Origin: Capitulum mitella
Taxonomy: Eukaryota > Arthropoda > Thecostraca > Pollicipedomorpha > Pollicipedidae
Length of the DNA: 64,000 nt
Direction of reading: 5' to 3'
Assembly (NCBI GenBank): GCA_030062745.1
Contig: CP099848.1
Coordinates: 14,545,568 to 14,609,567, forward strand
Shown here one piece after another: positions 13,764 through 55,275 of the stretch. The notes under the pieces are model-generated. The model searched no databases. It was not told the DNA's origin and saw only the letters and a list, made by a program, of their open reading frames with translations. Position 1 is the stretch's first letter; the number at the start of each line of letters is the position of its first letter. Both the position numbers and the translations under genes were made by a program.

Positions 13764-14125
13764 AATCCTTTAGAAGCGTGCGCCATAAACCAAGCACACT
13801 GGATGACACATATACGGCGCGCGTGGCAAAAGGAGACGTCAGCTGTTGCAAGTAACGACAACATTATGCACTGGAGCTCCAGGGTCGTGGATCACCTACT
13901 ATTCGCTAACCTAACCTAACCTAACCTAACCTAACCTAACCTAACCTGGCCTAACCTAACCTAACCTACTGTGTAAAACAAGAGCGAATAGTAGGTGATC
14001 TACGACCCTGGAGCTCCAGTGCATAATGTTGTTTCTTGCAACAGCTGATGTCTCCTTTTGCCACGCGCGCCGTATATGTGTCATCCAGTGTGCTTGGTTT
14101 ATGGCGTGCGCTTCTAAAGGATTGC
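13764..14125. repeat. Long palindrome (about 143-bp arms) around a telomere-like core
   Basis: 13764-13906 and 13984-14125 are near-identical reverse complements with only a few substitutions and small indels. Between them lies a (CCTAA)n tract. Both arms translate, outward to inward, to the same 50-residue string containing INQAHWMTHIRRAWQKE and MHWSSRVVDHLLF, as expected from a duplicated inverted segment. I do not recognise this string as a known protein. It could be a foldback transposon or an inverted duplication formed at a telomere-like insertion. Confidence 0.85.
13907..13969. repeat. Interstitial telomere-like (CCTAA)n
   Basis: About twelve CCTAA units (TTAGG on the minus strand) with a single CCTGG variant. 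TTAGG is the usual arthropod telomere repeat. Here it is internal and lies at the centre of a palindrome. Confidence 0.9.
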
Positions 14126-20376: not shown

Positions 20377-21082
<706 letters not shown>

Positions 21083-24125: not shown

Positions 24126-24239
24126 ATGGACGGCGTGTCCAGTCGTAATTCGGCCGTGGCCAGCCGCACGGCGCGCATCATGATGGAGGGTGTCGGGGCG
24201 CGCGTGATGCGTGGACCCGACTGGAAATGGTGCAAACAG
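24126..24239 (+). CDS. mib1: mib exon 1 (initiator Met, start of MIB/HERC2-1)
   Basis: It encodes 38 residues from an ATG, including [19 protein letters not shown], and ends at CAG|GTGAGC (phase 0). This ATG gives a short divergent leader before the conserved VEGVGARV block, as in other MIB1 proteins. An upstream in-frame extension has no ATG. The residue before KQ is Cys, where vertebrate MIB1 has Gly. Confidence 0.9.
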
Positions 24240-27200
24240 GTGAGCGCGCGCGCTGGCGTGACAGAGAGAGCCGTCCCGGGCGCCGCTGCCGCAGTTCGCC
24301 ACGCTGGATCGGTCATTTGGCTGGAGAGGATTTGTGGGTCCAGCAAATAGCGATCCTCCGCGGCGATATTGTGATTCGTTGCGTGACATGGAGGTAAGGA
24401 TTTTTATTTGCTAATTGTGACAGGATGATCTGTGCGATGGTTCGAGCTTATCAGATCTTTTATGACTGAATATTTAAAGTGATACGAATAGTTAGCTCTT
24501 CACCAGTGCAAAAGACTCCTACGATGAAGAAAATCTGGCTGGTTAACAGAAGCATGTCGTGATTTATTTCCTTGTTGATATTTGTTTTTTCTCGTTTCAA
24601 TGGCATTGCTGCTTTGCCATGAAGAGTTCCAGTCGTGCAGCGAGGCATTGTACGTGCAGTTCGCCGTTCTTGAGCATTGTCTTGCCATCCCGCAGGACGG
24701 CGGTGAAGGCCATGTCGGCACGGTGCGCAACTTCGAGTCGTCCGAGGAGGTTGTGGTGGTCTGGGACAACGGCACGGCGGCCAACTACCGCTGCGCCGGC
24801 GCCTACGACCTGCGCGTCATCGACAGCGCCCCGACCGGTGCGTAGCAGGCAGCTCCCGTCTAAGGGACTCGCGAAATCGTATGTGGCAGACAACACCCCC
24901 TCTCCACAGGGGCGTCACGGGCCAGTATCACCCCTGATAGGGACGTCTCAGATTGACGGGTGACCAGCAGAGGCTGGCGCACGGATGCCAGTTGTATACG
25001 GCTGACCATACGCCACGCAGGGGTGCAGCCAGTATAAGTGTTGCTGGCCATGGAGGCCTGGCTTCCCAGCGAGAACTTCCCGAACGGTGTGCGAGGTTGT
25101 AACGGTCTATGACATGTTGCATCGGCGTGTTCAACAAATTTGGTAACAGCATGGCAAAAAGAAATTAGGTGTTCGAGTGTTTCTGTGAGCCATTCTCTAC
25201 AATGATGGAAATGAAGCAACCACGATGCCTGAGTTCGATCTGTGGTCTTGGTTCAGTGCTGTTGTGGGCCCTGCCACCGGCTTGTATGGAACCTATACGA
25301 CTGTCATCCGCCGAGTCACGTCTTGAGATCGTCCAGCTGAATCACGGCGCAGTTCACGTTCTCGGCGGTTCATCTCCGACACGTCCTTTGACGTCCATGG
25401 CTGACCGCAGGCACCAAGCACGAGGGCACCATCTGCGACATGTGCCAGCAACAGCCCATTTTCGGCATCCGCTGGAAATGCGCCGACTGTTCCAACTTCG
25501 ACCTCTGCTCCGTCTGCTACCACGGCGACAAACACCACCTGCGGCACCGCTTCTACCGCATTACGGCGCCTGGCTCCGACAGGTCAGTATTCCCGGCTCC
25601 GACAGATGAGTTATCCCGGCTCCGACAGGTCAGTATTCCCGGCTCCGACAGGTCATTTCTCCCGGCTCCCACGGGTCAGTATTCCCGGCTCCGACAGGTC
25701 AGTTCTCCCGGCTCCGACAGGTCAGTATTCCCGGCTCCGACAGATGAGTTCTCCCGGCTCCGACAGGTCAGTTCTCCCGGCTCCGACAGGTCAGTATTCC
25801 CGGCTCCGACAGATGAGTTCTCCCGGCTCCGACAGGTCAGTATTCCCGGCTCCGACAGGTCAGTTCTCTCGGCTCCGAGAGATTATTCCCGGCTCCGACA
25901 GGTCCGTCCTCCCGGCTCCGACGGGCCAGTATTCCCGGCTCCGTCAGCTCAGTTCTCCCGGCTCCGACGGGTCAGTATTCCCGGCTCCGACAGGTCAGTA
26001 TTCCCGGCTCCGACATGTCAGTTCTCCCGGCTCCGACTGGCCAGTATTCCCGGCTCCGACAGGTCAGTTCTCCCGGCTCCGACAGGTCAGTAATCCCGGC
26101 TCCGACAGGTCCGTCCTCCCGGCTCCGACGGGTCAGTATTCCCGGCTCCGACAGGTCAGTTCTCTCGGCTCCGACAGGTGAGTATTCCCGGCTGCGACAA
26201 CCCAGTTGACCCGGCTCCGACAGGTCAGTAATGCCAGCTCCGACAGCCCAGTTTTCCTGGCTTCGACAGGTCAGTAATGCCAGCTCCGACAGGTCAGTAC
26301 CGCCGACTCCGATAGGTCAGTGCGGGGGGTGTGGGGCTTGTGCTGATCTTGGAATTCGTTGCCGTCTTGGGATGCATGCCTTCTAAATTGTTTTTCCAGT
26401 CCCATTCCTGGCAGAGGAAGGACCGTATGGCTTAGCATCGTCATTCTGTTTTATTTCGGGAGTGCTATTCTGTCATCGACAAGATAGGCGGCAAATTTGT
26501 TACACGGAATGCCGATAAATATTAGGTTTGATACCTTAGCAGTTGAATTGTGCTTTTAGGTGTACAGGTTTAAAATCCGTACCTATCATACCGGGATGCA
26601 AGAGAAAATGATATTGCTCAATTTTACGGTACATTTGTTGAACTTGGAACCTTGCTCTCTGTCCCCGGCCTGTTCGCGCCACTACTTTAAATTGTCATAA
26701 GCTCGTAGGCGATGTCAGACTTGTAATATATGTTTCGAGTCAGATTTGTTTCAGACATGCGTCGTGGCAGAATGCTCTTCCCGAGCCCGGACCCATTGCT
26801 CACCGTGACTGCGGCTTTGCAGGGTGCTGGTGGAACCGCGTCGCAAGAGCAAGAAGACGTCTGTGCGCGGCATCTTCCCCGGAGCCCGGGTGGTGCGCGG
26901 CGTTGACTGGCAGTGGGAGGACCAGGCGAGTGGGCCGTGTCCGATGCGCGCTGTGGAGCGACCGCACAACGCCCCCGGGGGGCAGCAGTGTGCTCTGGTC
27001 TCTCCTGATTGGCCGCACGGCGTCGCTGGCGTCAGGGTGCTGGTTAGCTGTTGACCTTTGGGAAGCCGACATTCTCCGCATACAGCAGCCTTAGCCTTGT
27101 GTGAGCAAGGTCGGGAACCCATAATGCTTCTAAACTCAGTCTGTTTGAAGCCAGCGGATGTGGTGCAATTTGGCTTGAGTAGATCAGTGCACGCGCTGAG

Positions 27201-30200
27201 TTGCTATTCAGCATGTGGCAGCGGATCTTACGAACGAACGGTCGGAGACATCCTCTGAGTAATTCTGAGAAACTCGGGTAGTTCCGACCAAGAAGGGTGA
27301 CGGTTCCATAAACGCCATGGCCTGCTTCTAACCAGATTTTCCAGGAGCCCCGGAGGCGTTTACTTTGAGACATGATCGAAGCGGCAGGCAGAGCCATTCT
27401 TTCGAGTAGGAAATCGGGAGCGTAAGCTGTTTCAGAGTCGGAACTATGTTGTTTCCAATTTTAGTTCTGTTGTTTTTCGCGTATGGCCTAGTGTGTTTGC
27501 TAGTGTCATGACAGTGTGCTCCTGCGCTGATAGTTTCGGACTCAAAAGATCCACGTTGGGTCTGACGTCTTCAGCTTCACATATTCATATCTCATTGCAT
27601 TAGTTGCATTTTGATTAGCTCATACTGTGCTGTGATTGGCAGGATGGTGGCAACGGTAGGCGGGGCAAGGTGACTGAGATCCAGGATTGGTCGGCCGCCA
27701 GTCCCCGGTCGGCTGCATACGTCATGTGGGATAATGGCCAGAAAAACCTGTATAGGGTCGGCTTTGAAGGCATGGTAAGCCCGATCGCCCGAGGCAAATC
27801 CGTTTGAAACCTCTAAACGGGGAGACTTGTGAAGAAACCCTACTAGGGTCTAGTCATCCGCATGAATAGCTTGATGTGTGTCGTAATGACGCGTGTATCC
27901 CTATACGACCACGTGGTTAGATCCATATTGGCTGGATGAAATTCCGAGCCGCACACCAACGTTTCATTCGTTTTGTCCCACATCGTCTTAGTGCCGTTAT
28001 TGCCATTGCCTGGCCGTTCAAAATTTCTTTTGCGATTCTCAATCGGCCGTACCGGTAGTCCTTTCGTTGCGAACGGCCCAGAGGGCGCCGCCTTCGCGCG
28101 CAGTCACCGAATGCTCGTTCTTCCCCGGGTCACAGGCGGACCTGAAGGTGGTGAACGACGCCAAGGGCGGCACCGTGTACCGAGACCACCTGCCGCTGCT
28201 GGGGGAACAGGGGCCCGGCCGCAGCGCCGGCCACGGCTGGAGCATCGGCGACCAGGTGGGCGGCCGACGGAGCGGGCCGTGGGCTGCGCTGGCCGGTCCC
28301 AGGGCCGGGGGCTGCACTGGCCGGTCCCAGGGCCGGCGCGGCGGCTGCCGTAGCCGAGGCAGGGCGAGGGATTGGCCGGAGGGCGAAAGACGCCAGAGCT
28401 TTCGATGGCAGGAGACCAAAGGGACTGACGACAGAGCAGTGGTAATGACAGGTCAAAGTGGTGGGCAGGCGAAGGTATGGGTCTGGTGGTGTAATTTGTT
28501 GATGCGCAGGGAATCTCCACGTCCTCTGCGATGAATGGCGTTTATCGATCTGCGTGCGGTGGACTGAAAGCTCGGTCGTGGTAATAGCCATAAATATGTG
28601 TTAGATCAGCTAATTTCGGCTTCAGCTGATCTCGCGCATGTTGTTCTATCCCCCGCTGGCTGTGTCCTGCGCCGTCTGCGTTTTCCTACATGTTTATTGC
28701 AGTAAAGCTATAAGAAGTTCTCGTGCAGGAAACTTGGCATGAGGTTTTCCAGCATGCCTTGGACTGGACGATTTGCGTTCACTTTGGATTCCTGCTCCCT
28801 GGGGAGCTGTGCTGTTGGCACTCTGACCCGGGACTGCCGCCCGCTCCGTCAGGTGAACGTCGACCTGGACCTGGACATCGTGCAGTCGCTGCAGTACGGC
28901 CACGGCGGCTGGACCGACGGAATGTTTGAGTGCCTCGGCACGGCCGGCACTGTCGTCGGTATCGACGAAGACCATGACATCGTCGTCTCCTACGCCAGCG
29001 GCAACAGGTTCGGCACGGCGTCGCACGCTGGAGGCGGCGTCTGGTTGACACCGGGACGATATTGTTTTTGCACCTGTTGAAAGCTTTGCAATTTGGGGTT
29101 TGCCTGGTGGACTGGCCGTGAGAGACGCCTTTATTTTTAACCATTTTTAAATTTACCTCGAATGTGGTGAAATGGGTGGCTTTTGGGGTCAGAGTTTATG
29201 GTAGGCTAAGCTTGTTGCCGGCCGTCCTCCCGCCACTGAAGTGTTCCCAAATATGAAGTAATCTTGTCCCAGGCGCCGAACCTGATGGCGCTGGAGGGTC
29301 CTTACCTGGAGCTGGAGGATCTTTTTACGGTGCCGTGCAACTCGACGACGCGGCCGCCCCGTGATCGGTTTCAGGCTTGTTGGCACCAGGACCCAGGTTT
29401 TGTTAGAGGACTAATTATGCTGGAGTTGTGTTCTTGTCGGGATGTTTTACACACGTTGACTCGCCGTCCGGCATCTTTCCTTGTTTCGAACCCTGTCTGA
29501 AAACCTGTCAGTCGCCTTCGCCCTTTGCCTGTCCGCTCCGCCTGAAAAGACGTGGCTCATTGGAATTTGTCGTATTGCTCCGTGAAACACCGCAAAGAAC
29601 AAACGTTTCGTGTGGTTCGCTTTCAAGGTCAGTCCCCTAAAATGAAGTGTCGTTCGTGGCGCACACGCGTCAGTTTTTCGGTGTGCTGACTGACGCCGAG
29701 TAGAATTGCTCGTGGTACGCCCTCCATCCATCACGCCTCGTTTTCGCCTGTCGACGGCCGCCACTGTTCCCTTTGCGAATCGTTACAGCCGATGGCGGCC
29801 GGTAGTGGTGCACCATTCAGTCTGCTCGCATTCATCGCCGTATGCCGGCGCGATTATCCTCCAGCCATTAGGCGGCGGGCACCGCCCGGCGCCGACCTCA
29901 CGGGCATTGGCTGTCCGGTGGCGGCGGAGGTGGGCGTTATGGCCGCACCTCACGTCCTGGCCGGCTGGGCGGGTCTGACGCCGAGCGTGGGCGGGCTGGT
30001 GCCGGTGGTGAGACCCGTGCGGTCCGGCCGGCCGGGGGCTGCGCTGCACAGCTGCTGCCGCCCTGTCACCACACAAAGAAGCCGGCAGGTGTAGGCGCCG
30101 TGCCGTTTCCAGAATGAGCGCTCGTGTTTACCTCTGGGATACGAAAAGTTTCGATCGCGTCATTGAGTTGTGCGTCACGATAAAGAGACGGTAATGACAT

Positions 30201-33200
30201 CGGCTGGGCGCTGAAGGCAGCGTTACTGGGTATTTGTGGTAGTCTTTGGGGGACTGGGTGATGGGGCCCGAGTCCTGACAATGAGCTGAGTTTGGTAGAG
30301 GTCTAATATGAACGCCCCTGCTTAACCTACCAGAACCAAAGTTCCGTATATGTGCACATAAAATGGTGGCCCCCGCGTCCAAGGTGGGCCCGCCACGGCA
30401 CTTGTCCCCTTCTGTGGCTCTGCCCGGGGATGCATATTGGCCACGCGTTCGTCCCGTTCTGTTGGACCCAGATGCCCCCCCCCCCACCGTGGCCTCGTGG
30501 TGGCAGTTGAACATACCGTCAAATAGTCGAGACCGGCGCCGTCGACTCCGTTGACCCGAAGGGCGGCTCGCCCCAGGCGGCACGCGGTAAACTGCCGCCG
30601 CTCTGTGGCTGATGAGCGCGGGGCAGGGTACCGCGTATGTTGAGTGTATCTTGTAGTGCTCCTGTTAGGTGGCGGCTCGATCTGCGCACGTTGCTGGTGT
30701 CCGTGTTTGTGCCGACCGACCTGTCTTATCTCGATGGATGTGAACCCGTGCGCGCTCAGCACTGTACGCCTGTGGGCAGTGATCTGACCCCCTCCCCCAG
30801 TCATCAATTCCACATGGGTTTGCGAACCCAGCGAGGCATTCTCTTCGACCTAATCCCAGTTCTCTGTCCCATCTGAGGTGGACTTTAGCCGTGCGCGGGG
30901 CAGGGCGTCTGCTTTGACCTGACGCCGACTGGCTGTCCATGTGGACGCTTAACCCGTGCGCCGGACAGGACAGTACCGTGACCTGAGCCCGACTTTCCAT
31001 CGCAGGTGGACGTTTAACCCGTGCGCTCTGAACAAAGTCTCCAGCGCCAGCGCCAGCGGCGGCGAGGCGGGCGCCAGCCAGTTCGCCGTCGGCGACCTGG
31101 TGCAGATCCACAGCGACCTGGAGCGCATAAAGGTGCTGCAGCGCGGCCACGGCGAGTGGGCCGAGGCCATGATGCCGGTGAGTGGACTGGGAACGGCGCT
31201 GTGCGGTCCACGCCTCCGCCCGCACCCGACGGGACCGAAACCGGCCACCACGGGGTAACGAACTGACGCCTCCATCACGGATCCATCGGGCGCATTTTAA
31301 TGGTAAAACCGCGTCACGTATTCTTATCAAGAGACTCTCTCTGTGCTTGTAATAGCGCTGCCTAAGACTGGAAACATTGCGGCGAGTGATGGCGCTACTA
31401 CGTCATTTAGAACTTACAGCTTTGATGGTCGCATTGGCATCTGAAAACGCTTTCCATGATATATTTCGTCCCGCCGTCCCCCCGGCGTAGTCTTCCCCAC
31501 CTTCTCAGCACTGAGCACCGTACCTGTGTGTGAGAGGCTCACGCCTGCTCACCGGACCTGGCATGCTCGCATCTGCTCACGCGTCCTCGCCTGTTCACGT
31601 CTGCTCACTCGTGGCGTCCTCCCGCTGGACAGACGCTGGGCAACATCGGCCGCGTGCAGCAGATCTACCACGACAACGACCTCAAGGTGGAGGTATGCGG
31701 CAACTCGTGGACCTACAACCCGCTGGCCGTCACCAAGGTGGCCTCGGAGGGCTCCGTGGCCACCTCCTCCAGCGGAGGTGAGTGGTCGGCCTCACCGCTG
31801 TCGGTCGCCCCCCCCCCCCTCCCCGGCGAGCGGCCGCCGGAGGTGACGTCCCGGACTGGGAGCGGCGGAGCGAGATACTTTTGGCGAGGCCGCGACATGG
31901 CTGCTGGTCGTGTTTGAGGGGGCTGGCAGTGATGGGTGCGCTTTGGTCGGCGTTTGGCGACACACGGTGAGGCGACGCACCAACAAACTGGGCACGAACA
32001 GACGATTCGTGTCCATTTTGTTGGTTATTGTATCAGTCATTCTGTGATGTGGCTGTGTTTTGCTAGGTGAATGGCTTCTGACACCACTGCGATGGTTTGC
32101 AAGTGCGTTGGAGTACGCTGTGTTTCTGGATTTGGTGTTACACATTGGATGGCTTTCGCATACTCTCAGACCATTGGAGACTTGTAACGGACCCCGTGGA
32201 GTGTCACCGGACGCTGCCAGCGTTCCCGGCGCCGCCCTGGCGTACCGGCAGTGATCCGCCCCGCTCCTCCGGTCCACCGCAGAGCGTCTGACCGCCCTGC
32301 TGAAGAAGCTTTTCGACTCGCAAGTCTCGGGCGACGTTAACGAGGAGCTGGTGAAGGCGGCCGCCAACGGGGACATCCAGAAGTGCGAGGAGATCCTGAA
32401 GCGGCCGGACGCGTCCCGTGACGGCGTGTTTGCCGGCCACACGGCGCTGCACGCCGCCTCCCAGAACGGCCACCAGGAGGTCATCAAGCTGCTGCTCATG
32501 CACAAGGTCGACACCGAGATCGAGGTATGCTGACTCTCCAGCGGGCGGAGACGGGGATGCGTCCCGAGACAGTGTGTTCGCTGGCCATATGGCACTGCAC
32601 GCCTCCTCCCAGAAGGCCTCAAGGAGGTCATCAGGCTGCTGCTCATCCACAAGGTCGACACCGAGATCGAGCACACAAGGCGGGGGGGGGGACGATGGGG
32701 AGTGAGAGAAGAGTGGCGGTTGTCCAACGCAACTGCGGTGGTTTGCGAGGGTGGTGAGGTCGTCTTGGTATCAGAAGTCGAATTACTGGTGTCACATCCC
32801 TTTCGGTCGCGTCATGAGACGTCCTGGATCATTGTCATCCGAAAAACGTAACTGTGAAAAGCTTGTTTCTTAGCCCACTATCGACCAGTGTCCTATAGAT
32901 TGGACAACTAAAAATCATTCTCTTCATGGCTCATGCAAAACTCATTAAACCTGGAGACATCGTCAGCAGGCGGCGAAAAGGTGGCGGCTCTTGCCTGAAT
33001 GTGTATAAATATAAAATAAATATAAAGAAAATATAAATATAAAAAAATCTAATGAATTCTGACTCCGCGGGATTTTCCCGGGTAAGCAGGCTTTGAACAG
33101 TATCAGACGTTTGAGAGAACCGTAGTCATGCGCTGTTGGTATTTCGTTTCATGTCTGAGCGTTAATAAAGTAAATATTCGTAATAATAAAACAAATATTC

Positions 33201-39400: not shown

Positions 39401-42268
39401 TGAATCTTTTGCATCAGTACATTTGTCAGTGAGACTTGTCATTTCTGTGTTATGGGCAGATGAAATCCGGACAAAATTTTCTGTCCACCCGCACTTGCGC
39501 TGGCAGTTGTACTTTCCGTGCTGAAAAATACATTGGCAGTCCAGTCTGTCAGAAAAAACGCAAACTTCTTTGCCATTGGTTTTCGGGTTTATTCTTCTTA
39601 GGCGATATCCCATTAGCCGGAATACTTTGTGTTTGTTATTAGCTATTCACGTTTGCCCATTGTGAACCAGGCGATCGGAATAATGCTGATTTCAACGCGC
39701 CTTTCTTGCATGGGTGTCTTCGTTATTACCCAACTGTCCGCTTGATTGTGTTTGAACAGAGTATAATGACCAGAGTTTAATCAGTTGCTCGGCGCGTCCC
39801 ATTATGTCATATTTCAGTTGAATGCTCTTGTGACTGTCACTTTGAATTTAAATCACCTTGATAATTGTATTCGGTGATGACAAATTGATCTGTCTTCCTC
39901 GTCTCATATTCCATATTTTATATTGCCTTTTAGAAAATGAAGGATTTGTTGGGAAACAAGGTGACAATTGGCCGGCGCGAAATCTGCCAAGTGTTAAATA
40001 AAGGGTAAGGTTGTTAAAACGTGTTTCTTCGCAGCGACTTAACAAAAAGTCCCGATAGTCATCTTCCATCGAACCGTTGTTATGGTGTCCGCTAAAAAAA
40101 GCCAATAGCCAACTGTGGCTAGTTACAACTGAGCGGAGGTCCTTAGATTAATGGTGCTTATAATGCCAGATGGAAGCGCCGTCTAATGAAGTGGTGTCTT
40201 GGTGTCTTTGATGTTTGCGTATGTGCATGGATGACTCGTAAACGGGGTAAAACGTCCACGGGCTTTCCGGAACGATCCGTCTAAGACAAATGCCATTAAA
40301 AGTGCACGTCGTGACTGGAAACGTCTGGAACTAGTGTCTGCATTTTAATGAATAAAGCCGTATGATGAACGACCATTCCCTCGTCGCTGTTTTGTGTCGT
40401 TTGGCTTGATGTATATTTTTACAATGTTTTAGCACTATCTGTGACTCTGTGGCCCGGCTGATTCTCATACATTATTTATGAATTTGTGATAGCAGCATGT
40501 TGTGCTTCTGTGGACTGTCCTTGACACTTGGTTCGCTGGTGTGTGTAGTGTTTTCAGTTCATTGGTCTGTCGTTTCTATTAACCCGTCCCCGACTGGGAG
40601 GGGCAGTTGACTGCCTCCCCGAAGGTTTTTCTGGGATTGCGGGAGAAACAACAAACACAGAGTCACGAAACTTTGTGTGCCTTTTGCTTCATCAATTTTA
40701 CATCTCGTGTCAAAATTTTGACCTTAGGTCAGGTCCGGTGCCTGACCTAAGTCAGGTCAAACGCACCTATGTCCAAAAAAGTTAAGCGCCCTGAAACTTT
40801 TTCGCAAAGCAAGATATCTCAATAATACTTTCAGGGATTAGTGATCGTGATAGATGCAACAAATCTGCTATCTCAGATTTTTCGGAATTTTCCGGGTCAT
40901 TGATCTAAGGTCAAGCCCATTTTTAAGACATGTTGCCGTTTTTTCGGAAATTGGCGGAATATTTCATAACATTTTTAGTGTGGAGTGAAGCAGACATCTA
41001 GTTACCGTCATTGGGCAAAGTATCAGTGACCTCCAGCCATTGACCTGAGGTCAGGTCACGAATAACTGTAGTGAGCCAAAATGTACCACCGTCAAAATCG
41101 ACGATGAATTACTCAGAATTGGTAGAAAATGGCGGAACTAGCTTGCACCGACGTCAGTAATACCAGGAACCTCAAAAAGTGTGAAAAAGTAGCATATTTT
41201 GGAAATAAACAGGCGCTCGCGAATAAAGCTCCGCCAATTGTGTAGCTCGGTAACTAATGAATTTTTCCAAAATTTAAGCATAAGGAACCATCACAAGAAC
41301 CACAAGGATCAATAAAATTCACATAGATAGTCTTTGTTCGTGAAAATAAAGGAACGCTAAAATTAGTTCCCGTCAATTTGTTACCGCATACGGCAGCGGC
41401 GCACACCGACAGCTGGCGGGAGAAATGCCGTGTCTTTAATTCAACGTTTCGGCGTATATATTGAGCAGATCTGGGAAATTAGACGTGTATCGGCATCCGC
41501 GGACCTTTACTTGTGCGCTGGTGCCTTTACCTATGCCTTATTAGTCACAGCCCTTGAGATTCAGGCCATTTCTCGGTCTCATGCAGTCGGCTATGAGAAA
41601 ACATATATAGGGCGTAAATTGGCTTACATATTATCTAAAACTAAAAATGAGACCAGTTTCGAGCTGTACTCGTCACAAGCTTTCCAGCGGTATGCTTATT
41701 TTTATCGTGCGACCAACCGTTCGTGAGTTAGAGGGGGGCAGCCAACTGCCCCCCCCCCCCAGTCGCCCGTGTTCGAAACGGACCGACGGTCGTTCGCGGG
41801 TTAATACGGTCACGAGGTACTTTCATTTCCGCCGTTGGATGCCTGCCATATTAATCCCACGGGAACCGTACTTCTCCATTCACCTGGTGTCAAACCCGCT
41901 TTAATATTTGGTCCCGTAGGATTCACACAGCGTCAGGGATCTCCACGCACCTGATACCGGATCCTGTTGCTCTTCGTACGTCACAAATTGTCAGAGGTCT
42001 CCACTCACTACCACAGGACCCGTACAGTATCAGGGGTCTCCACTGGCCCCCCCCCCCCCCGCCGCAGGACCCGCACAGTGTCAGGGGTCTCCAATGACCC
42101 TCCGCCCCTGCTGCAGGACCTGGACGGCGACACGGCGCTTCACGACGCCATCAGCAAGAAGCGGGACGACATGGTGGCCCTGCTGCTGGAGCACAGTGCC
42201 GACATTACGCTCACCAACAACAACGGCTTCAACGCGCTCCACCACGCTGCTCTTCGCGGCAATCCCAG
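24126..42268 (+). CDS. mib1: Mind bomb E3 ubiquitin ligase (MIB1 type), 5' part in 12 exons
   Basis: Join of exons 24126-24239, 24696-24837, 25411-25582, 26823-26925, 27643-27774, 28136-28255, 28853-29007, 31006-31177, 31633-31777, 32283-32524, 35722-35919 and 42117-42268. The join gives 615 complete codons plus 2 bases without an internal stop. Domain order is that of MIB1: MIB/HERC2-1 (about residues 15-83), ZZ zinc finger (about 89-141), MIB/HERC2-2 (about 152-230), two SH3-like REP repeats (about 255-415), then ankyrin repeats (from about 430). In the family, the N-terminal domains bind the cytoplasmic tails of Delta and Serrate/Jagged, and C-terminal RING fingers ubiquitinate them to drive endocytosis and Notch signalling. 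Human MIB1 is about 1,006 residues, so later ankyrin repeats and all RINGs are missing here. MIB2 is less likely given close agreement with MIB1 throughout. All introns are GT-AG except intron 4 (GC-AG). Confidence 0.95.
24240..24695 (+). other. mib intron 1
   Basis: A 456-base intron from GTGAGC to CCATCCCGCAG. Nothing else recognised. Confidence 0.85.
24696..24837 (+). CDS. mib1: mib exon 2 (rest of MIB/HERC2-1)
   Basis: It encodes [31 protein letters not shown] and [12 protein letters not shown], near-identical to the family. Acceptor CCCGCAG, donor GTGCGT. It leaves phase 1, completed by exon 3 to Gly. Confidence 0.95.
24838..25410 (+). other. mib intron 2
   Basis: A 573-base intron, GTGCGT to CTGACCGCAG. 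No repeat or other gene recognised. Confidence 0.85.
25411..25582 (+). CDS. mib1: mib exon 3 (ZZ zinc finger)
   Basis: It encodes the ZZ finger: CDMC, CADC and CSVC pairs plus HHLRHRF. All eight zinc ligands expected of a ZZ domain (six Cys here, two His) are present. It ends in PGSD and the first two bases of Arg (AG), with donor GTCAGT. The last bases of the exon and this donor are the unit of the tandem array that follows. Confidence 0.95.
25569..26310 (+). repeat. 23-bp minisatellite built on the exon 3/intron 3 junction
   Basis: About thirty units of GGCTCCGACAG|GTCAGT plus a TATTCCC, TCTCCC or AATCCC tail. The first unit is the true exon end and donor. Later units drift at the 3' end of the array. 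Because 23 is not a multiple of three, the unit is read in all frames. The exon 3 frame stays open into the array to a stop at 26091-26093, about 170 codons past the junction. Confidence 0.95.
26311..26822 (+). other. mib intron 3, unique part
   Basis: Sequence between the array and the exon 4 acceptor (GCGGCTTTGCAG). Nothing recognised. Confidence 0.8.
26823..26925 (+). CDS. mib1: mib exon 4 (linker and start of MIB/HERC2-2)
   Basis: It encodes [20 protein letters not shown] and [14 protein letters not shown], matching the family. It ends at GACCAG followed by GCGAGT, so the intron has a GC donor. Phase 0. No GT-type donor nearby keeps the WEDQ/DGGNG junction. Confidence 0.93.
26926..27642 (+). 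other. mib intron 4 (GC-AG)
   Basis: A 717-base intron beginning GCGAGT and ending GTGATTGGCAG. The rest of the donor fits the U1 consensus well, as is usual for GC-AG introns. Confidence 0.85.
27643..27774 (+). CDS. mib1: mib exon 5 (rest of MIB/HERC2-2)
   Basis: It encodes [19 protein letters not shown] and [10 protein letters not shown]. Donor GTAAGC, phase 0. Well conserved with other MIB1 proteins. Confidence 0.95.
27775..28135 (+). other. mib intron 5
   Basis: A 361-base intron, GTAAGC to GGGTCACAG. Nothing recognised. Confidence 0.85.
28136..28255 (+). CDS. mib1: mib exon 6 (linker into REP region)
   Basis: It encodes [20 protein letters not shown] and LLGEQGPGR through IGDQ. Phase 0 on both sides, donor GTGGGC. 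GC-rich, with strong third-position G/C bias, as in the other exons. Confidence 0.93.
28256..28852 (+). other. mib intron 6
   Basis: A 597-base intron. Near its start (28275-28337) a 28-bp unit containing GGCTGC(G/A)CTGGCCGGTCC is duplicated in tandem. Confidence 0.8.
28853..29007 (+). CDS. mib1: mib exon 7 (REP/SH3-like repeat 1)
   Basis: It encodes [26 protein letters not shown] and [10 protein letters not shown] through SGN plus two bases of Arg. The acceptor is CCGTCAG. The donor GTTCGG is weak by consensus but is the only site that joins in phase to exon 8. Confidence 0.92.
29008..31005 (+). other. mib intron 7
   Basis: A 2.0 kb intron, GTTCGG to CCATCGCAG. GC-rich around 29840-30060 and with a poly-C run near 30475. 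Its last 250 bases are the tandem array described separately. No further exon is recognised. Confidence 0.8.
30748..31026 (+). repeat. About 64-bp tandem repeat ending on the exon 8 acceptor
   Basis: The exon 8 start (GTGGACGTTTAACCCGTGCG at 31006) is preceded by related words at 30941 (GTGGACGCTTAACCCGTGCG) and 30878 (GTGGACTTTAGCCGTGCG), and by more diverged relatives near 30812 and 30748. The spacing is 63-65 bases. Each unit includes a GACCTGA(C/G) and a CGACT segment. Only the last unit has the intact CATCGCAG acceptor. Confidence 0.88.
31006..31177 (+). CDS. mib1: mib exon 8 (end of REP 1, start of REP 2)
   Basis: It encodes the rest of Arg, then [34 protein letters not shown] and [14 protein letters not shown]. 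Donor GTGAGT, phase 0. Close match to the family. Confidence 0.95.
31178..31632 (+). other. mib intron 8
   Basis: A 455-base intron. Near the 3' end, CTGCTCAC-type words recur (31535-31610). Acceptor GCTGGACAG. Confidence 0.8.
31633..31777 (+). CDS. mib1: mib exon 9 (rest of REP 2)
   Basis: It encodes [37 protein letters not shown] and a Ser-rich end. Donor GTGAGT, phase 1. Confidence 0.95.
31778..32282 (+). other. mib intron 9
   Basis: A 505-base intron, GTGAGT to TCCACCGCAG, with a poly-C run near 31808. Nothing else recognised. Confidence 0.8.
32283..32524 (+). CDS. mib1: mib exon 10 (helical linker and first ankyrin repeat)
   Basis: It encodes [31 protein letters not shown] and [20 protein letters not shown] through [18 protein letters not shown] is a canonical ankyrin helix pair. 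Donor GTATGC, phase 0. Confidence 0.95.
32555..32671 (+). pseudogene. Decayed tandem copy of the 3' half of mib exon 10
   Basis: 117 bases closely match 32407-32524. The translation remnants include [19 protein letters not shown] and [12 protein letters not shown], but a one-base deletion in the SQNGH segment breaks the frame. The copy ends GAGATCGAG followed by CACACA, so the GT donor is lost. It lies 30 bases downstream of the true exon end, with a CTCTCCAG acceptor-like word just before it (32534-32541). Confidence 0.9.
33334..33417. repeat. (GA)n(TG)n microsatellite
   Basis: About 50 bases of GA then about 33 of TG. Confidence 0.95.
34450..35700. repeat. Segment bounded by GGTTTAAACC-type repeats
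   Basis: Both ends (34450-34580 and 35590-35690) are rich in CTGGTTTAAAC, GGCTTAAATTAAT and CCAGCCAG-like words, partly in inverted order. That arrangement could be the ends of a 1.2 kb nonautonomous element. The interior has no coding signal. Confidence 0.4.
35722..35919 (+). CDS. mib1: mib exon 11 (two ankyrin repeats)
   Basis: It encodes [20 protein letters not shown], then [20 protein letters not shown] and CHPSLQ. Donor GTGAGC, phase 0. Two ankyrin units, highly conserved. Confidence 0.95.
36230..37200. other. GC-rich island inside intron 11
   Basis: CpG-dense sequence with many CCGCC and GGCCG words. Open frames on both strands are composition artefacts. No conserved domain. Confidence 0.5.
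38176..38372. repeat. About 60-bp tandem repeat, three to four copies
   Basis: The unit contains CCTGAGATCT(A/G)TGGTTTCC, ACGCAAAGG, and CTTCAAAACCCGGTA or close variants. It lies directly upstream of the transposase remnant, so it may belong to that element. Confidence 0.8.
38440..39345 (+). pseudogene. Tc1/mariner-superfamily transposase, broken
   Basis: Three frames together give the layout of a Tc1/mariner transposase. The N-terminal helix-turn-helix (38526-38585) carries [20 protein letters not shown] catalytic block follows with [17 protein letters not shown] and [12 protein letters not shown] (first Asp), then FQQDGVT (second Asp, near 39025) and [11 protein letters not shown] (third acidic position, near 39140), and a C-terminal segment ending near 39342. 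A frameshift near 38600, a TGA at about 39060 and another frameshift near 39130 break it. It is inactive and sits in the sense direction of mib. Confidence 0.88.
40579..41814 (+). mobile_element. Nonautonomous TTAA-flanked element (piggyBac-like MITE), copy 2
   Basis: 1236 bases with exact TTAA at both edges: TTAACCCGTCCC on the left, GCGGGTTAA on the right. It is the reverse-complement partner of 10499-11727. Shared features are the G/C runs just inside the ends, AGGTCA/TGACCT clusters in the left half and a 98-residue frame matching part of the other copy's frame. No transposase is encoded. It lies in mib intron 11, about 300 bases before exon 12. Confidence 0.82.
41917..42120 (+). repeat. 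About 50-bp tandem repeat ending on the exon 12 acceptor
   Basis: Units begin at about 41920, 41970, 42017, 42068 and 42117. They share CAGGACC or a variant, ACAG(T/C)(A/G)TCAG and GGGGTCTCCA. The units at 42017 and 42068 each keep a CAG|GACC that mimics the true acceptor at 42115-42116. One unit has expanded a poly-C run (42046-42060). Confidence 0.88.
42117..42268 (+). CDS. mib1: mib exon 12 (ankyrin repeats), last exon in window
   Basis: It encodes [20 protein letters not shown], then [11 protein letters not shown] and [12 protein letters not shown] plus AG of the next codon. Donor GTCAGT, phase 2. In MIB1 the next residues begin the SAMRVLL and DDGYTALHLAA segments, which I do not find downstream. 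Confidence 0.95.
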
Positions 42269-54530: not shown

Positions 54531-54533
54531 GCG

Positions 54534-55275
54534 GTCAGGTCACTGGGTGAGTCCCCGGGCCGGTCAGGTCACTGGGTGAGTCCCCGGGCCGGTCAGGTCA
54601 CTGGGTGAATCCCCGGGCCGGTCAGATCACTGGGTGATTCCCCGGGCCGGTCAGATCACTGGGTGAGTCCCCGGGCCGGTCAGGTCACTGGGTGAGTCCC
54701 CGGGCCGGTCAGATCACTGGGTGAGTCCCCGGGCCGGTCAGATCACTGGGTTAGTCCCCGGGCCGGTCAGGTCACTGGGTGAGTCCCCGGGCCGGTCAGA
54801 TCACTGGGTGAGTCCCCGGTCCGGTCAGATCACTGGGTGAGTCCCCGGGCCGGTCAGATCACTGGGTGAGTCCCCGGGCCGGTCAGGTCTCTGGGAGAGA
54901 CGGTCACCAGGCCAGTCAGGTCACTGCGAGAGACAGTCACCGGACCAGTTAGGTCACTGGGAGAGACAGTCCGTGGGCCGGTCAGGCCACTCTGGGTCGG
55001 TCTCAGGTCACCGGGGGAGACAGTCTCCGGGCCAGTCAGGTCATTGGGAAAGACAGTCACTAGGCCGGTCAGGTCACTGAAAGAGACAGTCCCCGGCCGG
55101 TCAGGTCAGTGGGAGAGACAGTCCCCGGCGGGTCAGGTCATTGGGAGAGTCAGTCTCCGGGCCAGTCAGATCACTGGGTGAGTCCCCGGGCCGGTCAGGT
55201 CACCGGGAGAGACGGTCCCCGGCAGGTCAGGTTGCCGGAGCAGGCATTCCCTGGACCGGTCAGGGCCGTGTCCCG
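54534..55275. repeat. 29-bp minisatellite
   Basis: Twelve or so nearly identical units of GGTCAGGTCACTGGG plus TGAGTCCCCGGGCC to about 54893. About a dozen diverged units in which GAGAGACAGTC replaces TGAGTC follow to 55275. Each unit carries AGGTCA or AGATCA, and most carry GTGAGT. Confidence 0.95.

Follow-up and report, generated by a model that had tools for sequence, protein, structure and literature searches.

How does the end of an exon, together with its 5' splice site, come to stand in tandem at the head of an intron, and what do the extra donors do there? The locus that raises this question lies in a stretch of 64,000 nucleotides from the arthropod Capitulum mitella, analysed as a whole and called the window here, the + strand of which carries the first part of the mind bomb (mib) gene, a Notch regulator. 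An earlier note on this DNA had proposed that the unit of a tandem array is the end of mib exon 3 plus its donor and that the array starts at the true junction. Unit cutting and alignment to MIB1 show that it is so, and the assignment of the gene to mib holds as well, with exons 3-5 matching human MIB1.

The third junction of the mib gene

All features described for the gene and its array lie on the + strand. The coding part of exon 1 (24180..24239), read from MMEGVGARV with an assumed start codon, ends at the donor CAG|GTGAGC, and its translation presumably corresponds to the MIB1 N-terminus; translation and donor were read directly, as were translation and splice signals of exon 2 (24696..24837), which ends at CCG|GTGCGT. 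Exon 3 (25411..25582) encodes the ZZ zinc finger (Pfam ZZ, E=1.2e-12; human MIB1, PDB 4xi6, E=4.7e-32) and ends with GGCTCCGACAG. The first bases of intron 3 are GTCAGTATTCCC, which places the exon 3/intron 3 junction at 25582|25583. This intron (25583..26822) spans 1240 nt, 745 nt of them belonging to the array, and closes with the acceptor TTTGCAG|GGTGCTGG. The second MIB/HERC2 domain begins in exon 4 (26823..26925) and continues in exon 5 (27643..27774; Pfam MIB_HERC2, E=3.9e-20). Exon 4 is followed at 26926 by a GC donor, CAG|GCGAGT, which is backed by human MIB1, since the spliced product aligns to it at this point with no gap.

When exons 3, 4 and 5 are joined at the donor of the first unit, 136 of 136 query residues align without a gap to human MIB1 (PDB 4xi6; whole-sequence E=1.2e-90). 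The human counterpart across the exon 3/4 junction is PGSERVLLESRRKSKK, and PGS(D/E)RVL is common to both proteins. Because splicing at unit 1 gives this gapless alignment, the ancestral junction is that of unit 1, from which the other units were copied; moreover, its 11 exonic bases encode a stretch shared with human MIB1 and so predate the array, which makes unit 1 the founder. Protein conservation thus points to the use of this donor. Farther downstream, Pfam and a tblastn search with a MIB1 C-terminus query recognised no more mib exons on the + strand of the last 21.7 kb of the window (42269-64000), which may therefore be one long mib intron, with the RING part beyond the window.

Architecture and history of the array

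Tandem Repeats Finder places the 23-bp array at 25572-26321, starting 11 bases within exon 3, with 32.7 copies, 80% matches and a score of 954, the highest of its 50 rows for the window. With additional cutting by hand, the array comprises 33 units (25572..26327), namely 32 of 23 bp and a single one of 20 bp, unit 14, which is 3 bases short. An earlier description as a tandem array was correct, whereas its count of about thirty units ending at 26310 becomes 33 units, the last recognisable one ending at 26327. Minisatellites consist of head-to-tail units of ~10-100 bp, and the 33 copies of a 23-bp unit place the array among them. The founder unit (25572..25594) contains 11 exonic and 12 intronic bases with the true donor CAG|GTCAGT at 25583, and it has 0 mismatches to the consensus GGCTCCGACAGGTCAGTATTCCC, which is matched exactly by six units (1, 3, 7, 10, 12 and 19).

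The order of the units retains traces of how they were copied. Two kinds alternate, ending in ..ATTCCC and ..TTCTCCC, and the identity of units at lag 2 amounts to 0.873, compared with 0.832 (sd 0.009) after 500 shuffles of the units (z 4.7); the value for lag 9 is 0.882 (z 4.2). A copy of three units is seen in the longest stretch repeated exactly within the array, which measures 90 bp and is offset by 69 bp. Units 28-33 differ from the consensus by 2 to 8 mismatches and form a worn distal end, compared with 0 to 5 in units 1-27. Ordinary minisatellite slippage or unequal exchange would account for growth of this kind.

Other junctions and repeats in the window

Among 18 mib junctions probed with 24-mers, only exon 3/intron 3 has a local family (29 matches with at most 7 mismatches), the probes for the exon 9 and exon 13 donors being set 2 and 1 bases off the true junction. 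General junction amplification in mib was therefore rejected, as the other 17 tested junctions have no such family. The acceptor of the exon starting at 42117 has a single 18/24 match 49 bp upstream (42067-42116), and a worn 28-bp repeat (31537-31620) lies directly upstream of the acceptor of the exon starting at 31633. An introner-like element would recur at several intron sites; at the same limit of 7 mismatches and on the + strand of this window, the junction 24-mer has no copy more than 2 kb away. In a new intron gained by tandem duplication both splice sites would derive from the duplicated segment; the acceptor 24-mer at 26822 has no match to the array at that limit.

A second minisatellite at 54532-55232, with a unit of ~29-32 bp (...CACTGGGTGAGTCCCCGGG...), contains 21 donor-like sites on the mib strand that match at 7 or more of nine positions, of which a single one reaches at least 8; the sequence at its edge gave no recognisable exon. 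More than one donor-like site at this lower threshold (>=7/9) was found solely in this minisatellite and in the mib array when 14 arrays picked from the Tandem Repeats Finder list were compared. Rfam returned nothing at gathering scores within the window. Elsewhere, an interstitial array of CTAAC, which we take to be the arthropod-type telomere repeat, extends over 12.6 copies at 13906-13968, and two frames with FFPLPKLKG... text (20434-20661 on the - strand and 20689-20916 on the + strand) presumably resemble the end of a mariner-type transposase.

Donor quality of the units

The earlier note had called nearly every unit a potential donor, which is too strong: the donor position holds GT in 24 of 33 units, GC in two (16 and 21) and neither in seven (2, 8, 11, 14, 17, 28 and 30), and no more than 16 units, unit 1 counted, reach or exceed the 4.6 bits of unit 1 on a generic matrix for 5' splice sites. 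On this scale unit 1 is mid-range among nine GT donors scored in mib, which span 0.1 to 7.5 bits, the lowest value belonging to an exon 7 donor that was placed by eye and is possibly misplaced. The nearest copy, unit 2, is dead as a donor, and the nearest in-frame one, unit 4, is weak (0.5 bits). The strongest donor of the array, CAG|GTGAGT in unit 27 (26167..26189), scores 8.5 bits but is out of frame and lies past the first in-frame stop. Duplex energies with U1, which take in two bases beyond the nine, lie between -1.4 and -14.1 kcal/mol when the 32 full-length units are compared, with -9.9 for unit 1 and -14.1 for unit 27.

If a strong donor-like site is defined as GT with at least eight of nine bases complementary to U1, G at +3 being taken as a match, the 756-bp array contains 16 of them (21 per kb), whereas the remainder of the window has 12 on the mib strand (0.19 per kb) and 8 on the opposite one. 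Dinucleotide shuffling of the array 300 times yields a mean of 0.11 such sites and a maximum of 2.

Reading frame and signs of selection

Exon 3 read on into the array stays open for 169 codons from the junction to a TAA at 26091..26093, the first in-frame stop. The figure of about 170 codons given earlier was thus nearly exact, whereas its value as functional evidence is lost, since repeated 23-mers are commonly open: 3915 of 9140 23-mers sampled from the window (43%) cycle without a stop, and holding the exonic 11-mer constant raises this to 6013 of 9142. The 169 open codons therefore need no selection, and the open frame was rejected as evidence for a coding role, a stop-free unit of this length staying open unaided.

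Reading unit by unit confirms the earlier statement that, with 23 bases per unit, the frame is kept only at each third donor. Six downstream donors with GT are in frame and lie ahead of the stop, namely those of units 4, 7, 10, 13, 19 and 22; their use would lengthen the protein by 23, 46, 69, 92, 137 and 160 residues, respectively, and unit 16, with GC, would likewise stay in frame. Unit 7 (25710..25732; +138 nt, +46 residues) is the nearest of the downstream in-frame donors that equals unit 1. Splicing from units 3, 6, 9, 12, 15, 18 and 21 leads to a stop in exon 4; for unit 5, the only member of its register whose frame was followed onwards, the stop comes in exon 5. Units 24-33 lie past the stop within the array.

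Selection for donor function should keep the donor bases better than the remaining positions, and this is not what the units display. Bases other than the commonest occupy 10 of 64 cells at the GT positions vs 34 of 608 elsewhere (Fisher p 0.006), in a comparison of the 32 full-length units that excludes unit 14 and the block-type positions 18-19 and whose cells are not independent. Within units 2-22 (25595-25959), all five units that lack both GT and GC (2, 8, 11, 14 and 17) fall into one reading register. For a range that was picked post hoc, the probability of this clustering is 0.003 if the units are independent and an estimated ~0.1 if units 2, 8 and 11, which have one variant in common, represent one event. 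Beyond this range, the dead units 28 and 30 sit in the two other registers. The pattern could hint at selection against one frame, or it may have arisen by chance through block copying.

Explaining the array

Taken together, we regard the array as probably a junction-seeded minisatellite that is mainly a neutral by-product, with unit 1 used mostly and later units rarely; judged from the sequence, neutrality would be the default reading. The seed would have been a tandem duplication of the 23-bp segment across the mib exon 3/intron 3 junction, and the units are arranged for the most part in alternating two-unit blocks, with block copies added later. The array would be tolerated because the copies sit downstream of a complete donor. 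Units 2-33 would lie inside the intron and be spliced out along with it. In exon definition the donor closest to the exon is favoured, and exon 3 would owe its definition chiefly to its own acceptor and to unit 1 as the closest donor, which would make the normal protein the main product. On this principle and the IFI6 precedent discussed below, unit 1 should dominate, with later units minor. Some transcripts may nevertheless be spliced via later units, most of them frameshifted and degraded, and a few may carry an insert between the ZZ finger and the second MIB/HERC2 domain that lengthens by 23 residues with every three units. It is not certain that unit 1 dominates, since 15 other units score at least as high and unit 27 much higher (8.5 vs 4.6 bits). 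According to the part of a study on U1 that was available (PMC5389562), several U1 particles on competing 5' sites affect the choice of site and not the efficiency, unless they are near enough to clash, and a spacing of 23 nt may be close enough.

If the array were instead a working splicing device, several units would be used, giving isoforms in steps of 23 residues and a degraded frameshifted pool that sets the dose of Mind bomb, with allele length as the dial. The 24 GT units, the 16 at or above the strength of unit 1, the six open in-frame GT donors downstream and the precedent of IFI6 all argue for it. So does the folding of the RNA, as the sites are likely to be open: the array with its 10 preceding bases reaches -232.3 kcal/mol vs a mean of -279.9 in 20 dinucleotide shuffles, worse than 20 of 20 (z +6.0), and three short pieces give z values of +1.1, +1.6 and +2.7. 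The predicted folding therefore gives no indication of masked donors, and the idea that RNA structure hides them was rejected, although periodicity alone can explain such poor folding. We nonetheless consider a device of this kind unlikely in view of donor GTs that vary more than other positions, two thirds of units that shift the frame, a dead nearest copy and a weak nearest in-frame one. It appears very unlikely to us that the array is a length-tunable splicing rheostat, in which allele-specific numbers of donors in the three registers would set normal against frameshifted, degraded mRNA and against the 23-residue-step isoforms; if it were, a minisatellite would tune Notch signalling via mib. 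A further reading sees a landing platform for U1, raising its local occupancy so that a donor with a poor +3 base is strengthened and the nearby gene is shielded from premature polyadenylation, the copies themselves staying uncut. The density of strong U1 matches, 21 per kb vs 0.19 outside the array on that strand, would suit it, and so would the C at +3 of the true donor, whose 4.6 bits compare with 7.2-7.5 for the three best of the nine mib donors, as well as an influence of U1 on polyadenylation that reaches up to 1 kb in the part of PMC5389562 available. The same part suggests, however, that neighbours at 23 nt may clash; the donor bases are not conserved, the exon 13 donor with the identical nine bases (CAGGTCAGT) has no array, and neither do the donors of exons 2, 7 and 11, all of which score lower (that of exon 7 being placed by eye and uncertain), so that we hold a platform to be quite improbable.

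The two remaining readings concern the DNA itself. That 33 units are an artefact of assembly is a natural suspicion for arrays known to be error-prone, and yet it is highly improbable for an array of 750 bp, short relative to long reads, whose units come in many distinct sequences, follow a two-unit order and are worn at the distal end. A role at the DNA level, such as an intronic enhancer with AGGTCA, which we take to be the nuclear-receptor half-site, could be read from the 17 occurrences of this motif in 756 bp, compared with 45 elsewhere on the mib strand of the window. We judge it extremely unlikely: AGGTCA is part of the copied junction, and its count follows from the duplication. The junction-seeded minisatellite, as a mainly neutral by-product, hence remains the reading that we prefer, and on this reading a coding junction seems able to give rise to a minisatellite while the reading frame stays unharmed. 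Two dozen GT donors, 16 of them at least as strong as the true one (itself included), at a spacing of 23 nt offer a natural experiment on how the spliceosome chooses among near-equal 5' sites, and since many units differ, transcripts could reveal which of several are used.

Comparison with known systems

In human, the minisatellite of IFI6 (6-16, G1P3) has a 12-bp unit, which would keep the frame at every copy, whereas the 23-bp unit of mib does so at each third; the 130-residue form of IFI6 is the shortest. The layout of the IFI6 array is found again in mib: the first unit spans the real exon/intron junction and later units repeat the donor. IFI6 is an interferon-induced human gene and mib an invertebrate gene of the Notch pathway; use of the donors has been reported for the former and would be a prediction for the latter. 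The IFI6 minisatellite was described by Turri, Cuin and Porter in 1995. As summarised in another paper (PMC4526556), three mRNAs arise through two downstream repeat donors, with the 130-residue form predominant; in both arrays, units beyond the first provide further splice donors, two of which are reported as used in IFI6.

Intron gain by tandem genomic duplication also involves the tandem copying of a segment that bears splice signals, but in the part of that work available (PMC4974935) the duplication is tied to a gained intron, whereas in mib a junction already present was duplicated into the intron that it borders. CeRep25B of C. elegans is likewise an intronic minisatellite linked to splicing; as far as the accessible part of its description goes (PMC4039745), two short intronic motifs within a repeat family are over-represented near many alternative splicing regions, in contrast to mib, where the unit is the donor and a single junction is concerned. 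Minisatellites of earthworm and abalone, in the portions of their reports available, are unlike the mib array. No second donor-supplying minisatellite besides IFI6 appeared among the literature matches listed. A minisatellite that supplies donors is therefore already known, and the mib array, as read from its letters, would be the invertebrate counterpart of the reported human case, from which it differs in gene, animal group and unit size and in the two thirds of its units that would break the frame.
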